Positions 15,150-58,110 of a stretch of 64,000 nucleotides of DNA are shown here, piece by piece. A model generated the notes under the pieces. That model was not told where the DNA came from. It saw nothing but the letters and a program-made list of their open reading frames with translations, and searched no databases. A program made the position numbers and the translations under genes. Within the stretch, counting starts at the first letter, position 1. Every line of letters starts with the position of its first letter. The DNA is from Pantoea sp. WMus005 (GTDB taxonomy: Bacteria > Pseudomonadota > Gammaproteobacteria > Enterobacterales > Enterobacteriaceae), in the NCBI RefSeq assembly GCF_013415305.1, contig NZ_JACBXU010000006.1, positions 62,001 to 126,000 of the forward strand, in the 5' to 3' direction.

Positions 15150-16565
15150 TCAGGAAGATAATGTTCTGATGAGATTAGAGAAATCTTCTTTGATATCGTG
15201 GCTCTCTTCACGCAACTGCTCAATCTTGCGGCAGGCATGAAGCACCGTTGTGTGGTCGCGACCCCCAAAAGCATCGCCAATTTCTGGCAAGCTGTGGTTC
15301 GTCAACTCTTTCGCCATCGCCATCGCCATCTGGCGCGGACGTGCCACTGAGCGCGAACGGCGCTTGGAAAGCAGATCCGCTACCTTAATCTTGTAGTACT
15401 CAGCCACGGTCTTCTGAATATTATCGATGGTGACCAGCTTTTCCTGCAGCGCCAGCAGATCGCGTAGCGCTTCGCGCACGAAATCGATGGTGATCGCCCG
15501 GCCGGTAAAGTTGGCGTTGGCGATCACGCGATTCAGCGCGCCTTCCAGCTCACGCACATTAGAGCGTAAACGCTTGGCAATAAAGAAGGCGACTTCACCC
15601 GGCAGACGGATATCGTTCTCATCCGCTTTTTTCATCAGGATCGCCACTCGCGTTTCCAGCTCAGGCGGCTCGATCGCTACCGTTAAACCCCAGCCGAAGC
15701 GTGATTTGAGACGATCTTCCACCCCGTTGATCTCTTTTGGATAGCGATCCGAGGTGAGGATGATCTGCTGATTGCCTTCTAATAAGGCATTAAAGGTGTG
15801 GAAGAACTCTTCCTGCGATCGCTCTTTATTCGCAAAGAACTGAATGTCATCGATCAGCAGCGCATCGACAGAACGGTAATAGCGTTTGAACTCTTCAATC
15901 GCATTGTTCTGCAGCGCTTTAACCATGTCCTGAACAAAGCGCTCAGAGTGCATGTAAACCACTTTTGCATTCGGTTTACGGGCAATGATGCCATTGCCTA
16001 CCGCGTGCAGCAGGTGCGTTTTCCCGAGACCGGTGCCGCCATACAGAAACAGCGGGTTATAAGCGCCGCCTGGATTATCCGCCACCTGACGTGCCGCCGC
16101 GCGCGCCAGCTGGTTGGATTTACCCTCAACGAAATTATCGAAGTTATGACGGTTATTCACATTCGAGCGATAAGTGACGTCGGCCGGTGCCGGGACATTA
16201 TCCCAGCTGGGACGCATGATCTGCGTCGGGGCCGGACGGATGTGACTCTGTACAGGCATCACGGGCGCGCTGACGCTGGCCATGACCGGCTGGTTGAACG
16301 CTGCCGTCTGCTGCTGAACCGGGCGTGTACCCACTTCAAAACGCAGTGCTGGCACGTTTGGTCCGCAGAATTCATTCAGCAGCGCATTGATACTATTAAG
16401 GTATTTGTCCCGAACCCAGTCGAGTACGAAGCGATTTGGAGCATACAAGGCAAGCGTATTGTCGTTTAACTCAGCCTGCAGTGGACGAATCCACATGCTG
16501 AATTCGGTGGCAGGAAGCTCATCCTGCAAACGGGCAAGACACTGTTGCCAAAGCGTAAGTGACAC
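15150..16565 (-). CDS. dnaA: Chromosomal replication initiator DnaA
   Basis: 471 residues from a GTG at 16565 ([26 protein letters not shown]), with GGAGT about 7 nt upstream; the GTG four codons earlier would destroy this ribosome site's use. Domain I (1-90), flexible domain II with Pro/Gln-rich sequence, AAA+ domain III ([11 protein letters not shown] Walker A, DDIQFF Walker B), and domain IV with the DNA-binding signature [15 protein letters not shown]. Conserved through domains III-IV almost to identity with E. coli. A DnaA box about 205 bp upstream indicates autoregulation. Confidence 0.99.
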
Positions 16566-16770
16566 GGCGGACTCCACTCGTACAAATTCGAAAAGAATAG
16601 TAGGCGTTACTCTAAGAAACGTTCATTTTTGACACAGACGCTAAGAAAGCGCCTGCGACCGCTATCAGCGGTTTTCCGTCCTGCAATCACCGGAGGATCG
16701 TCAGCGGAAGGGCGGATCATAGCGCAAAGCGAGGCAGAGATCTTCCCTTTCTACACAGTTTCGATCCTTT

Positions 16771-53583: not shown

Positions 53584-55275
53584 ATGAATTACATTAAAAC
53601 CCTGACTCAGCAAAAGTTATCGCTATTGCTGGCGCTCTATCTCGGTATCTTACTGAATTTACCGATTTTCTATCGTCGATTCGATGGTTTTCTTAAGCAC
53701 TCTACGATAACGAACTGGCTGACTGCCGTGACGGAAGTGGTAGCCATTGTGCTGCTGACTTTCTTCCTGATGCGGCTGCTGTCGCTGGGTGGAAAGTGGT
53801 TTTATCGCGTGCTGGCCACACTGATAGTGCTTATTTCTGTTGCTGCTGCCTATTACATGGCGTTTTTTAACGTCGTGATTGGCTACGGCATTGTTGCTTC
53901 GGTAATGACCACCGACACTGATCTCTCTAAAGAAGTGATTGGCTACCATTTTATTCTGTGGATGGTGCTGGTCAGCGCGCTGCCGCTACTGATGATCTGG
54001 TATAATAAGCTGAGCATGACGCTGAATGAACAGTTGCGTACGCCGGGACAGCGTCTCAAGCCAACCGTGATCATGCTGCTTTGCGTGGCGCTGGTCTGGC
54101 TGCCGATTCGTTTTCTGGACAAGCTGCAGAAGCATAATGAAGAGATCACCAACATTGATCTGCCGAGCTATGGCGGTGTGGTGGCACACTCTTATCTGCC
54201 TTCGAACTGGCTGGCGGCTGTGGGCCTGTTTGCCTGGACTCGCATGGATGAGTCGCTGAATAGCGAGGAACTGCTGGATCCGGCGAAGAAGTTTACCTAC
54301 GTTGCCCCTGCCGGACTGGACGACACCTATGTGGTGTTTGTGATTGGCGAGACCACCCGCTGGGATCACATGGGGATGCTCGGCTACGAGCGTGATACAA
54401 CGCCAAAGCTGTCGAAAGAGAAGAACCTGGTGGCGTTCCGGGGCGAGTCCTGTGATACCGCGACCAAGCTGTCGCTGCGTTGCATGTTCGTGCGCGAAGG
54501 CGGCACCATGGATAACCCTGGCCGCACGCTGAAAGAGCAGAACGTGTTTGCGGTGATGAGAGAGCTGGGCTTCACCTCTGAGCTGTTTGCGATGCAGAGC
54601 GAAGTCTGGTTCTACGACAACATCAATGCCAACAACTTTGCCTTCCGTGAGCAGATTGGTTCAGAGAAGCGTAATCAGGGCAAATCGGTGGATGACATGC
54701 TGCTGGTGCCAGAGATGAAAGCGTCACTGGATCGTTTTCCGAAAGGTAAACACCTGATCGTGTTGCACACCAAAGGGTCGCACTACCTCTACTCACAGCG
54801 TTATCCGCGCAGCTTCGCGAAGTATCAGCCGGAGTGTATGGGCGTCGATGAGACCTGCAGTAAAGCGCAGTTGATCAACGCTTATGACAACTCGGTGCTG
54901 TATGTCGATAGTATGCTGGATAGCGTACTGGATCAGCTGCGTGATAAAAAGGCGATCGTTTTCTATGCCGCCGACCACGGTGAGTCGATTAGTGAGAATA
55001 TGCACCTGCACGGCACGCCGCGTGAGATGGCTCCGCCTGAGCAGTTCCGCGTACCGATGATGGTCTGGGCGTCAGATAAGTATCTGGAAGACAGTCAGAA
55101 CCGCAGCAACTTTGAGCGTCTGCAGGCACAGCAGCGTGTAGGCCGGACTCATCGCCACGTTGAGTTGTACGATACCATTCTGGGCTGTCTGGGTTATACC
55201 TCGCCAGATGGCGGCATTAACCCGGCCAATAACTGGTGTCAGGCACCCGCTAAAGACCAGGCTAAAGCGCTGTAA
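53584..55275 (+). CDS. eptB: Kdo2-lipid A phosphoethanolamine 7''-transferase EptB
   Basis: 563 residues (E. coli 563). Five N-terminal membrane helices (to about residue 175), then a periplasmic sulfatase-fold domain: IGETTRWDHMGMLGY with the catalytic Thr for phosphoethanolamine, ESCDTATKLSLRCMF, LHTKGSHYLYSQRYP, and YAADHGESISE with metal ligands. Adds phosphoethanolamine to the outer Kdo of lipopolysaccharide. Position next to a tRNA-Pro gene and dpp is as in E. coli. Confidence 0.96.
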   Translation: MNYIKTLTQQKLSLLLALYLGILLNLPIFYRRFDGFLKHSTITNWLTAVTEVVAIVLLTFFLMRLLSLGGKWFYRVLATLIVLISVAAAYYMAFFNVVIGYGIVASVMTTDTDLSKEVIGYHFILWMVLVSALPLLMIWYNKLSMTLNEQLRTPGQRLKPTVIMLLCVALVWLPIRFLDKLQKHNEEITNIDLPSYGGVVAHSYLPSNWLAAVGLFAWTRMDESLNSEELLDPAKKFTYVAPAGLDDTYVVFVIGETTRWDHMGMLGYERDTTPKLSKEKNLVAFRGESCDTATKLSLRCMFVREGGTMDNPGRTLKEQNVFAVMRELGFTSELFAMQSEVWFYDNINANNFAFREQIGSEKRNQGKSVDDMLLVPEMKASLDRFPKGKHLIVLHTKGSHYLYSQRYPRSFAKYQPECMGVDETCSKAQLINAYDNSVLYVDSMLDSVLDQLRDKKAIVFYAADHGESISENMHLHGTPREMAPPEQFRVPMMVWASDKYLEDSQNRSNFERLQAQQRVGRTHRHVELYDTILGCLGYTSPDGGINPANNWCQAPAKDQAKAL

Positions 55276-55361: not shown

Positions 55362-55390
55362 TTGACGCTGATCGGGGGTAGCAGTAACAT
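55362..55390 (+). promoter_or_regulatory. tRNA-Pro promoter
   Basis: TTGACG (55362-55367), 17-bp spacer, TAACAT (55385-55390), then the GC-rich discriminator GCGCCCCC (55391-55398), which is the mark of growth-rate- and ppGpp-controlled stable RNA promoters. Confidence 0.75.
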
Positions 55391-55400
55391 GCGCCCCCAT

Positions 55401-55477
55401 CGGCGAGTAGCGCAGCTTGGTAGCGCAACTGGTTTGGGACCAGTGGGTCGGAGGTTCGAATCCTCTCTCGCCGACCA
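55401..55477 (+). tRNA. proM: tRNA-Pro, anticodon UGG
   Basis: 77 nt with CCA encoded. Acceptor CGGCGAG / CTCGCCG, D-arm GCGC-AGCTTGGTA-GCGC, anticodon stem ACTGG / CCAGT with loop TTTGGGA (anticodon TGG), T-arm GGAGG-TTCGAAT-CCTCT, then ACCA. The sequence equals E. coli proM (tRNA-Pro UGG) as I recall it, but in E. coli this locus between eptB and dppA holds proK (anticodon CGG). The symbol therefore follows sequence rather than location. Confidence 0.95.
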
Positions 55478-55520
55478 TATTTAAGAAACCTGTCTGAAAA
55501 GACAGGTTTTTTTTCGTCTG
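55459..55520 (+). repeat. 62-bp direct repeat, copy 1 (tRNA 3' end plus terminator)
   Basis: Runs from the T-loop of the tRNA through its CCA end and terminator to CGTCTG. An identical copy starts 164 bp later at 55623. Confidence 0.9.
55486..55514 (+). terminator. Rho-independent terminator of tRNA-Pro
   Basis: AAACCTGTCT / AGACAGGTTT stem, 4-nt loop, T8 tract. Confidence 0.9.
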
Positions 55521-55544
55521 TAGAAAAAGAGGATGAGAACCGAC

Positions 55545-55630
55545 AGAGGAGGTTTGAGCCGAGCGCAGCGAGACAACGTTGCTTCAGCAACGGCCCGAAG
55601 GGCGCTGCTCGAAGAGCAGGGTAATCCTCT
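55545..55630 (+). other. Structured insert: stem enclosing three successive hairpins
   Basis: AGAGGA (55545-55550) can pair with TCCTCT (55625-55630). Inside are CGTTGC-TTCA-GCAACG (55577-55592), GCCC-GAA-GGGC (55593-55603) and CTGCTC-GAA-GAGCAG (55605-55619), back to back. GGAGGTTTGAG before and TAATCCTC after resemble a T-arm whose loop has been split, and the downstream part is the second copy of the tRNA 3' end. Coding potential none. Function unknown. Confidence 0.6.
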
Positions 55631-55684
55631 CTCGCCGACCATATTTAAGAAACCTGTCTGAAAAGACAGGTTTTTTTTCGTCTG
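55623..55684 (+). repeat. 62-bp direct repeat, copy 2 (tRNA tail and terminator duplicated)
   Basis: Exact copy of 55459-55520, including CTCTCGCCGACCA and the full terminator hairpin with T8. It is not preceded by an intact tRNA. Confidence 0.9.
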
Positions 55685-56499
55685 AAGAAAAGTGATTTGC
55701 AGGCAAAGAATTAGCGCTGTTCAAGCTTCAGGGAGCATACGCCTGCAGCAAAGCATCACGGGCCAGGGATGAGCCGCGCCGAGCATGGCAGGGAGGGTTT
55801 AAGCGCCTTTCCGATCTGTTCGTGTTCCCAAAGCAATCTCCATCTTAATGCCACTCTCGCTTGCCATCTTTTGTTGCCCGCCCCGATACCTTCCAGAAAG
55901 TTCCAGTAAATTCCATTCGTCGTACATTTCGCTTACTCCCGTGATTATCACTGCGTTTACGCCGTCAGGCCTTGCCACAGAAGAGATGCGATCATAATTC
56001 GCGACACATTCTTCTTATGACCGAAAGCGGCAACATGCTGATTTCTTATGCTTCTTTGCCAGCATATTCCTCTGGGTGAACGTCATAACGCACGGTGAAT
56101 CGTTCAGTTATTCAACATTTGCCGGTAAAAGCTTTAAGTTTTTTAGCGGTGAGAATCACTAGTGATAGAACGGCAATCCAGCATAATCCACGGAATTCAG
56201 GCCAGTGGCGCTGTGCATTGTATGGCTTTTGAGCTGAAAGAGTTTTTATTACCGTTGCATGCTATCCCTCACACTCTGTGTAAATAACTAACAGTTGTAT
56301 TGACGTTCTTTGCAACTGTTGACAAATTGATGCGTCAATAAACACGCAGTTACGGAATTTTCTGAATGCATCATCTGCATCGGGAAAAACAAAAAAACGT
56401 CGCGCGTGTTAACCACCTGTTCGGTGGTACGCCTGAACCGCATAAAAAAATCAGAGGTCAGGCAATACACACAACATCACATCACAATGGAGCAAAAGC
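55685..56499. other. Long intergenic region upstream of dppA
   Basis: 815 bp with no convincing gene; a minus-strand frame at 56288-56470 has no family pattern. The first 120 bp are GC-rich with imperfect repeats of CAGGGA (around 55730-55800) and may be more repeat debris. The final 150 bp are the dppA promoter and leader: TTGACA at about 56318-56323 and a CA-rich leader just before the gene. Confidence 0.6.
56464..56487 (+). promoter_or_regulatory. CA-rich leader, probable GcvB sRNA target
   Basis: The dppA leader has ATACACACAACATCACATCAC immediately before the GGAG ribosome site. The GU-rich region of GcvB pairs with such CA repeats in E. coli and Salmonella dppA, blocking ribosome binding. 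GcvB itself is not in the window. Confidence 0.55.
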
Positions 56500-58110
56500 A
56501 TGATCAACTCCCTGGCTAAATCCGGGATGCTGAAGGTCGGTCTGAGCCTGATTGCTATGACTGTCGCCGCCGGTGTTCAGGCAAAAACCCTCGTTTACTG
56601 TTCTGAAGGTTCTCCGGAAGGCTTCAACCCGCAGTTGTTCACCTCGGGCACCACCTACGATGCCAGCTCACGTCAGATCTACAACCGACTGGTTGAGTTC
56701 ACTATCGGCACCACCGAACTGCACGCTGCACTGGCAGAGAAGTGGGATGTCAGTGAAGACGGTAAGACCTACACCTTCCACCTGCGTAAAGGCGTGAAGT
56801 GGCAGACCACCAAAGATTTCAAACCGACGCGCGACTTCAACGCGGATGATGTGGTGTTTACCTTTGAGCGCCAGCTGGATAAAAACAACGCCTATCATGG
56901 CGTCTCCGGCGGCAGCTATGAATATTTCGAAGGCATGGACATGCCTAAGCTGATCAGCAAAATTGAGAAAGTGGACGACAACACCGTTCGCTTCGTGCTG
57001 ACCCGTCCTGAATCGCCGTTCCTCGCCGACCTCGGCATGGATTTCGCCTCGATTCTGTCGAAAGAGTACGCAGACAACATGCTGAAAGCGGGCACCCCGC
57101 AAAACGTCGACCTGAACCCGGTCGGTACGGGCCCGTTCCAGCTGCTGCAATACCAGAAAGATTCGCGCATCCTTTACAAAGCTAACCCGAATTACTGGGG
57201 CACCAAACCAAAAATCGATCGCTTAGTCTTCTCCATCACCCCGGACGCGTCGGTGCGTTACGCCAAGCTGCAGAAGGGCGAATGTCAGGTAATGCCGTAT
57301 CCAAACCCGGCTGACATCGCGCGTATGAAGCAGGACAAAAATATCAACCTGTATGAGCAGGCTGGCCTGAACGTCGGCTATCTGTCGTACAACGTTGAGA
57401 AAAAACCGCTGGATAACCTGAAAGTGCGTCAGGCACTGACCATGGCGGTCAACAAAAAGGCAATTATCGAAGCCGTTTATCAGGGTGCAGGTCAGCCTGC
57501 TAAAAACCTGATCCCACCAACGATGTGGGGCTATAACGACGAAGTGAAAGACTACGCTTACGATCCTGAGAAAGCCAAAGCGCTGCTGAAAGAAGCGGGC
57601 ATGGCGGAAGGTTTCTCAATCGATCTGTGGGCGATGCCGGTTCAGCGTCCTTACAACCCGAATGCACGCCGCATGGCTGAGATGATCCAGAGCGACTGGG
57701 CGAAGATTGGCGTGAAAGCCAAAATCGTGACCTACGAGTGGGGCGAATATCTGAAGCGCGCCAAAGCAGGCGAGCACCAGACCGTCATGATGGGCTGGAC
57801 CGGCGACAATGGGGATCCGGATAACTTCCTGGCCACCCTGTTCAGCTGTTCAGCGGCTAAAGATGGCTCTAACTACTCACGCTGGTGTGATAAATCCTTC
57901 GAGGACCAGATCCAGCCAGCACGTGCTACTGCCGATCAGGCGAAGCGCATTGAGTACTACAAACAGGCACAGGTTGTAATGCATGACCAGGTACCGGCGC
58001 TGATGATCGCGCACTCAACGGTATACGAACCGGTCAGCAAGAAAGTCTCCGGGTATAAAGTCGATCCGCTGGGCGGACACTACTTTGCTCAGGTAGACAT
58101 TAAAGAATAA
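56500..58110 (+). CDS. dppA: Dipeptide-binding periplasmic protein DppA
   Basis: 536 residues. Sec signal peptide to VQA-K (cleavage after residue 28), then KTLVYCSEGSPEGFNPQLFTSGTTYDASS and the bilobal SBP family 5 fold, with LNPVGTGPFQLLQYQKDSRILYKANPNYWG. Binds dipeptides and haem-type ligands for the Dpp permease, and in E. coli also mediates peptide chemotaxis with Tap. First and probably most highly expressed gene of dppABCDF; 171 bp with a hairpin separate it from dppB. Confidence 0.98.
   Translation: MINSLAKSGMLKVGLSLIAMTVAAGVQAKTLVYCSEGSPEGFNPQLFTSGTTYDASSRQIYNRLVEFTIGTTELHAALAEKWDVSEDGKTYTFHLRKGVKWQTTKDFKPTRDFNADDVVFTFERQLDKNNAYHGVSGGSYEYFEGMDMPKLISKIEKVDDNTVRFVLTRPESPFLADLGMDFASILSKEYADNMLKAGTPQNVDLNPVGTGPFQLLQYQKDSRILYKANPNYWGTKPKIDRLVFSITPDASVRYAKLQKGECQVMPYPNPADIARMKQDKNINLYEQAGLNVGYLSYNVEKKPLDNLKVRQALTMAVNKKAIIEAVYQGAGQPAKNLIPPTMWGYNDEVKDYAYDPEKAKALLKEAGMAEGFSIDLWAMPVQRPYNPNARRMAEMIQSDWAKIGVKAKIVTYEWGEYLKRAKAGEHQTVMMGWTGDNGDPDNFLATLFSCSAAKDGSNYSRWCDKSFEDQIQPARATADQAKRIEYYKQAQVVMHDQVPALMIAHSTVYEPVSKKVSGYKVDPLGGHYFAQVDIKE

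Follow-up and report, generated by a model that had tools for sequence, protein, structure and literature searches.

A tRNA-linked RtT repeat unit behind tRNA-Pro(TGG) of Pantoea sp. WMus005 and the match of arms in its family to the host tRNA

The DNA analysed in this study, a window of 64,000 nucleotides from Pantoea sp. WMus005, carries a structured repeat at the proK position, directly following a tRNA-Pro(TGG) gene. This repeat is almost certainly one RtT / tRNA-linked repeat (TLR) unit. The unit is ordinary for its kind and belongs to a known repeat class, because Rfam, the E. coli proK locus and the TLR literature all match. At the level of the sequences compared, the family was shown to consist of a shared hairpin core with host-specific arms. 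Our reading of these arms as a whole, to which we assign a probability of about 0.4, is that the RtT unit would be part of a read-through RNA in which the arm's choice of a partner could refold the unit's own tRNA.

The unit at the proK position

The host tRNA-Pro gene (anticodon TGG; positions 55401-55477, + strand) was recognised by tRNA and Rfam matches, and is preceded by a promoter-like site, TTGACG-17-TAACAT (55362-55390, +), which is a consensus match only. Self-comparison of the window revealed the exact 62-nt repeat that had been pointed out in the original prediction, with copies at 55459-55520 and 55623-55684 (both +) that start 164 nt apart and are separated by 102 nt. An exact repeat of this length is far beyond chance. 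In a wider comparison of 55459-55527 with 55623-55691, the 69 nt were 99% identical. Each copy comprises the last 19 nt of the tRNA, from the T-loop to the CCA, and a terminator hairpin with a T run. These hairpins lie at 55483-55512 (+; repeat comparison and visible letters) and at 55647-55676 (+; repeat comparison). A simple terminator scan detected none here, and the term ‘terminator’ rests on the visible hairpin and 8 T.

The covariance-model search that had been suggested as a check was run with Rfam, and the RtT model RF00391 matched positions 55512-55641 (+) over its whole length (model positions 1-130) with 89.2 bits, well above the cut-off of 45. By the curated cut-off, the unit is thus a member of RF00391. 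The hallmark of TLRs, as given in the consulted portion of PMC8144298, is that their 3′ 18-19 bp are the same, letter for letter, as the end of the tRNA or rRNA gene that precedes them. In the window, this identity amounts to 19 of 19 positions at +164, and the unit is located directly behind the tRNA gene, beginning 35 nt past its end.

Within the unit, arm a (AGAGGAT, 55528-55534, +), which was delimited by comparison of units, has complementarity to both tails, that of the tRNA and its copy in the unit. With ATCCTCT at 55624-55630 it forms the stem that encloses the insert. Arm a is followed by the junction UGAGAACC (55534-55541, +; letters, unit comparison and folding), the GA of which would face the G-A of the T-loop copy, and by arm b (CCGAC, 55540-55544, +), where CCTCC would be expected and the letters facing positions 51 and 50 are changed. 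Segment c (GGAGGTTTGA, 55548-55557, +) is a near copy of the 5′ strand of the host T-stem plus T-loop (GGAGGTTCGA). The core was predicted to fold into three contiguous hairpins, CGTTGC-TTCA-GCAACG (55577-55592, +), GCCC-GAA-GGGC (55593-55603, +; the CCCGAAGGG core) and CTGCTC-GAA-GAGCAG (55605-55619, +), and the unit ends with tail d (55623-55641, +), which in self-comparison repeats the final 19 nt of the host tRNA without a mismatch. This confirms the earlier description of three hairpins with GAA or TTCA loops at 55577-55619 inside an AGAGGA/TCCTCT stem, and the characterisation of the second copy as a T-arm with an insert in its loop (GGAGGTTTGA ... AATCCTCT) is a fair one. An additional small hairpin precedes the three, pairing GAACC (55537-55541) with GGTTT (55551-55555), and was absent from that description. 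The stability of the insert was ruled out as proof of structure: its fold energy of -40.1 kcal/mol corresponds to a z-score of only -1.21 and is unremarkable, 27 of 200 shuffled sequences being as low. From the tRNA through the second terminator, the fold z-score is an unusual -6.99, but this stretch includes the tRNA and two terminators.

The gene order around the window tRNA is that of eptB-proK-dppA in E. coli K-12. The upstream gene (53584-55275, +) is an ORF judged to be eptB-like by its position and by reading, and the downstream ORF (56500-58110, +) is dppA-like by position according to the E. coli gene order; both lie outside the unit. Behind proK, E. coli K-12 has one full unit with its tail copy at +168 and 0 of 19 tail mismatches, and all 5 of the listed E. 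coli records (the best 5 of 5380 matching) are labelled as RtT sRNA and tRNA-Pro under the match. The window unit was thereby shown to correspond to the RtT annotated at E. coli proK, with which it shares the neighbours eptB and dppA and a single full unit with an exact tail. The two differ in that the E. coli host has the anticodon CGG and the tail CCTCTATCACCG, whereas the window has the anticodon TGG and the tail CCTCTCTCGCCG, each tail following the local tRNA. In the genome of the window, three tRNA-Pro matches were found, TGG twice and GGG once, with no CGG among them, and both TGG and CGG occur among solo tRNA-Pro genes of same-genus genomes.

The unit also resembles the RtT of Rfam, that is E. 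coli rttR behind tyrV, in its position after a tRNA, its tail copy, its arm and its hairpin core. However, behind tyrV of E. coli K-12 the tail copy occurs three times with a spacing of 178 nt, whereas the window has a single unit of 164 nt behind tRNA-Pro(TGG). In E. coli K-12, an RtT-like core was additionally seen between tyrT and tyrV (locus L036). Compared with the E. coli TLRs, no distinguishing feature was found; in the window, the repeat extends through the terminator to 62 nt. The RrA, RrB and RrF elements between the two terminators of E. coli rrn operons likewise have a repeat of the upstream 3′ end, two terminators and a read-through RNA, but their host is 5S rRNA and CsrA binding has been reported for them, as described in the consulted portion of PMC8144298.

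Two of the explanations considered for the repeat found no support. A leftover of an integration event was rejected, since E. coli carries an equivalent unit at the equivalent locus and there is no room for a recombinase: the 102 nt between the repeats fit no recombinase, phage or plasmid gene, and none was recognised by reading the ORF list of the window. An assembly error was rejected because the same layout recurs in relatives. Elsewhere in the window, Rfam AsdA (antisense RNA of dnaA mRNA) matched positions 15963-16043 on the + strand with 76.1 bits, facing a dnaA-like ORF on the - strand (15150-16577).

According to the portion of PMC8144298 that was consulted, the repeat class was first described in 1978, is represented in E. 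coli by 22 TLR genes at ten loci, and has no known function; an early claim of a role in recovery from starvation was later withdrawn. The early literature named there comprises Egan and Landy 1978, Bosl and Kersten 1991 and 1994, and Rudd 1999. The consulted parts of other papers still cite a stringent-response role for RtT and report northern blots of an RtT transcript in A. pleuropneumoniae (PMC4986893), remark on the tandem GA in RtT (PMC7657543), place rttR among REP-holding sRNAs (PMC12306157), and compare rttR with BIMEs (PMC2965389). The suggestion of a structured RNA arising by read-through accords with what has thus been described for relatives, both for RtT and for RrB.

Occurrence of RtT-like units

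The idea that the repeat unit targets tRNA ends is borne out by copies behind other tRNAs in the same genome and in relatives, and the absence of other copies, which would have spoken against it, was not observed. In the genome of the window, three RtT matches exceeded the cut-off, namely the window unit and matches behind a Val-Val-Val-Lys cluster and behind a Lys-Lys-Lys cluster. The second tRNA-Pro(TGG) of this genome has the same type of terminator followed by a degenerate-looking, tail-less start of a unit (C38, L002 1539-1660, behind argX-hisR-leuT-proM); at this proM locus, there was no RtT match at E 1. Among 60 sampled same-genus genomes, 48 had an RtT match at E 0.001 and 42 had one over the cut-off, with 0 to 17 matches per genome. 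The hosts in this set were Tyr, Pro(TGG), Pro(CGG), Lys and Ser tRNAs, as judged from a chosen part of the matches (80 regions and the loci returned with the search).

Beyond the same-genus set, units were collected with patterns that required TGAGAA, GGTTYGA and CCCGNAGGG. A pattern scan of species genomes returned at least 118 loci, of which 80 were inspected, and Microbulbifer, Zhongshania, Alteromonas, Bowmanella, Luteimonas, Pseudoxanthomonas and Marinobacterium were among the matches listed. The hosts in this set include Val, Phe, Met, Glu, Arg and Trp tRNAs; altogether, RtT-like units occur behind tRNAs of 12 amino acids, also outside Enterobacterales. Matches in other phyla had no nearby tRNA and are probably due to chance. 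A second pattern was present in 44 of 369 genomes of the class, representing 39 of 272 genera, and the backward control gave 0 among the rows listed. The Rfam RtT model reached its cut-off in only 4 of 18 non-enterobacterial loci chosen from the at least 118, and the RtT family is therefore wider than the Rfam model.

Several individual arrangements may be mentioned here. For 31 of 91 pattern matches, there was no tRNA within 700 nt upstream. Some of these are clearly RtT-like, and L138, L148, L150, L185 and others combine an RtT-like unit with a weak Phe-like tail; such tRNA-less units are possibly orphan or mobile. On a Lacimicrobium contig (L155), tRNA-Glu genes and RtT-like units follow one another in turn, the pair of tRNA and unit being repeated as a whole, and in Saccharophagus (L178 5873-6530) four tandem RtT-like units follow a tRNA-Ser(gga) with no copy of the host tail. 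Lastly, many non-enterobacterial units (L117-L234) have GGA in predicted hairpin loops, as in CsrA/RsmA sites.

Match of tail and arms to the host tRNA

The tail copy follows the host. Among 158 units defined by a tail copy, at the sole position separating the tails of Pro(CGG) and Pro(TGG), the units behind the former had A in 6 of 6 cases and those behind the latter G in 48 of 48. In a set of 180 units, tail positions 5-15 were identical to those of the own tRNA at frequencies of 0.94-0.99, compared to 0.26-0.81 for other tRNAs, although this is partly a result of selection since units entered the set through a tail resembling that of the host (no more than 6 mismatches in 19). Tail position 11 reached an own-tRNA identity of 0.99 vs 0.31 even though it is hardly paired with arm a (0.33 vs 0.28). 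Among 129 first units, the 45 nt behind the tRNA and behind the tail were at least 90% alike in 59 and less than 70% alike in 39. We attribute the likeness of tail and terminator to recombination between direct repeats.

From 5′ to 3′, arm a comes first in the units, followed by UGAGAA, arm b and segment c (GGTTYGA). The stretch a-(A/G)TGAGAA-b closely resembles what a host T-arm and the adjoining acceptor strand give upon reverse complementation, namely rc(acceptor)-rc(T3)-ATTCGAA-rc(T5). Indeed, arm b was the exact reverse complement of T-stem positions 51-49 in 129 of 164 first units, covering 12 amino acids and 19 T-stem types. The letters facing positions 51 and 50 agreed with rc(T5) at frequencies of 0.95 and 0.93, compared to 0.25 and 0.31 for other hosts (128 first units). 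For 13 T-stem types, 61 of 65 consensus letters matched (permutations: mean 36.9, max 53, 0 of 200000 as high), and 466 of 540 b sites were Watson-Crick with the own T-stem (shuffling of types: mean 192.8, max 410, 0 of 10000 as high). The units are related and the shuffles treat T-stem types as exchangeable, which should be borne in mind for all of these statistics. The match was found in register (0.86, vs 0.19-0.42 when slid by 1-4) and also within single amino acids that have several T-stem types, where the own type fitted 2.42 of 3 sites and other types 1.41. Where host T-stem pairs are not Watson-Crick, b followed the 5′ strand in 39 of 41 cases and the 3′ strand in 0, though 16 of these 39 are Pro units in which c also explains b. 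Cores that were 85-89% alike behind Glu, Gln and Val tRNAs (L155, L253, L118) had an arm b that was exact for each host.

The sets used across the arm tests are overlapping but not identical. Loci that had been fetched twice (10-15), parses with a spurious TGAGAA (2, then 10), and units that had no CCA-ending tRNA, a T-loop not starting with TT, or a tRNA too far upstream were dropped.

Pairing inside the unit was considered as the cause of the host fit of b. A hairpin between a and b is ruled out, as b follows the 5′ strand of the T-stem where a and b cannot pair, and only 2 sites are explained by a alone. Pairing of b with c holds true for many same-genus units, but it fails for units with a gap of 7-8 nt, in which b was exact in 37 of 45 and a T-stem copy was present in c in 2. 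Excluding the sites at which c could serve as partner of b left 214 sites, of which 149 still fitted the host (shuffle mean 72.3, max 128). Of the 540 b sites, 56 were explained by the host T-stem only, 6 by c only, 2 by a only and 55 by none, the rest being shared. On the other hand, b failed to follow the host in 35 of 164 units, including the window's own (CCGAC instead of CCTCC), 4 Tyr units with the T-stem GGAGG (0 of 3 sites on average) and many Gln units. Several units, including that of the window, have lost part of the host match.

Some units lack a host tail within the following 180 nt, which allows the arms to be viewed apart from a tail copy. Among 31 first units of this kind, b was exact in 29, and 149 of 186 sites of a were paired with the tail of the host in a fixed register with no bulges (shuffles: mean 107.0, max 135, 0 of 5000 as high). 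Among the non-Watson-Crick sites between a and the host, 33 of 70 were G-U (null 22.0, sd 2.9, 1 of 20000 as high). This combination of fit and G-U excess points to pairing with the tRNA, but does not decide between pairing and copying. However, arm a of tail-bearing units showed no G-U excess (53 of 230 vs a null of 48.8), and neither did arm b (8 G-U and 50 mismatches in units with a tail). The G-U evidence for arm pairing is therefore mixed. Arm a could also pair in cis: its best partner in the next 180 nt matched 8.5 of 10 positions in tail-less units and 9.1 in units with a tail, each value being a maximum over many registers with no null. Where host and tail differ, a followed the host only in 12 cases, the tail only in 1, both in 6 and neither in 7, but this comparison is weak because fresh tail mutations would look the same.

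In the open-licence literature, we found no description of complementarity between the 5′ arm and the host T-arm; the founding papers may contain it.

Proposed refolding of the tRNA and competing explanations

In minimum free energy (MFE) folds of RNAs comprising tRNA and unit, the arm invaded the T-arm in 90 of 132 cases and the native T-stem was kept in 13. When the unit was shuffled with its tail kept, the T-arm was invaded in 0 of 396 folds and the T-stem was native in 260. A forced invaded fold lay below the forced native fold in 116 of 132 cases, with a median difference of -6.0 kcal/mol; for the window, the respective values were -101.7 and -92.3 kcal/mol. Exchanging b for the b of another T-stem type cost 3.9 kcal/mol on average. 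Pairing of the acceptor strand with the tail copy was ruled out as a special trait, because this switch was seen in 334 of 396 shuffled as well as in 117 of 132 real folds. Since MFE folding leaves out tRNA tertiary contacts and the order of folding, these energies show that refolding is possible, not that it occurs.

The course of events that we envisage is as follows. Polymerase would read through the first terminator, whereby the unit would be transcribed. Two partners would then be available to the arm. Pairing with c and d, the T-arm copy inside the unit, would result in a closed hairpin RNA, and pairing with the T-arm of the co-transcribed tRNA would unfold that T-arm. Most likely, it is for this choice between a closed unit and tRNA invasion that the arms are kept. 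Read-through would thus give a refoldable pre-tRNA that either fails to mature or does so in another way. The hairpin core would stay exposed for a protein, the identical CCA tail would preserve tRNA-like 3′ processing, and recombination within the array would keep the tail in step with the tRNA. We infer the origin by read-through at this locus, the strand exchange and the effect on tRNA maturation.

The main rival to this reading is a small RNA that is merely processed and has a protein-binding core. Pairing of its arms in cis (a to d, b to c) would close the RNA, its CCA tail would offer a tRNA-like 3′ end to RNase E, RNase P and exonucleases, and the core would do the work, for example as a CsrA/RsmA binder as reported for RrB. 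We regard this explanation as a serious possibility, albeit at less than even odds. It agrees with the annotated end of E. coli rttR, which is exactly the first tail copy, with the pairing of a and d, which follows the host (0.87 vs 0.41 at tail position 6), and with the reports on RrB in the consulted portion of PMC8144298, where northern blots and mapped ends are given for the read-through RNA, which is processed and binds Hfq and CsrA, and where the 3′ repeat is proposed as an RNase E site. It does not account for the fit of b to the T-stem at the 56 sites where the unit has no partner of its own (vs 6 for c and 2 for a), or for arms that match the host even in units with no tail copy. With regard to the core, GGA occurred in predicted hairpin loops 1.22 times per unit in 95 units from outside the genus, compared to 0.42 in shuffled sequences, but in the L001-L116 set (85 units) merely 0.48 vs 0.28 times. 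The three named hairpins of the window carry TTCA and GAA loops, and the CsrA-type prediction scores were below 0.01 for 19 TLRs of tRNA operons in the part of PMC8144298 consulted. CsrA binding of RtT-like units may be taken as a lead only.

Copying at the DNA level could produce host-like sequences with no selection on RNA pairing, the tail arising by recombination and arms a and b by quasi-palindrome template switching. Quasi-palindrome correction is template switching at inverted repeats. Such copying would explain why unpaired tail positions still equal the host, why the terminators behind tRNA and unit are so often at least 90% alike (the 59 of 129 mentioned above), and why single deviations in b were G-U in 11 and other in 12 cases (before 10 double parses were removed). 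Much of the arm-host match could indeed be copying, because the G-U excess is absent for b and for a of tail-bearing units. It is nevertheless an unlikely explanation for the whole, given the G-U excess for a in tail-less units and the state of the T-loop part. The 158 tail-defined units (at most 4 of 19 tail mismatches) comprise 143 with TGAGAA, 2 with N and 13 without TGAGAA, and in these 13 the T-loop part was never the exact complement, although copying should restore TTCGAA. Very improbable, finally, is the notion that the units are neutral tandem debris, or else a selfish repeat which moves from one tRNA end to another and is useless to the cell. This notion would fit the copy number of 0 to 17 among same-genus genomes, the 175-bp VNTR listed at rtT RNA in Salmonella in the consulted part of PMC2658671, and the proM loci, where the genome of the window has just a degenerate unit start and E. 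coli has none. It is at odds with the presence of a unit at the proK position in both E. coli and the window genome, and with the finding that arms match the host on cores whose sequences vary by 10-15% from one host to another.

The refolding reading may be extended to the class. RtT/TLR units would then be host-tuned antisense elements, with a shared hairpin core on an arm that mirrors the T-arm and acceptor strand of the respective host as their reverse complement, and a fixed UGAGAA tandem G-A step opposite the T-loop, for at least 12 amino acids across Gammaproteobacteria. Upon read-through, strand exchange would mask the T-arm of the own tRNA, and terminator efficiency would set the share of the tRNA transcript that can mature. 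We consider this generalisation tentative and, on balance, rather doubtful.

The unit in the window is a further copy of a known class, and its added interest lies in the arm rule. RtT/TLR elements are abundant beside enterobacterial tRNA genes and, by the account in the portion of PMC8144298 consulted, have been given no agreed function since 1978. If the wider occurrence holds true, the range of the known family extends beyond the reach of the Rfam model, and should the match between arms and host prove real and functional, RtT function would become directly testable via arm b.
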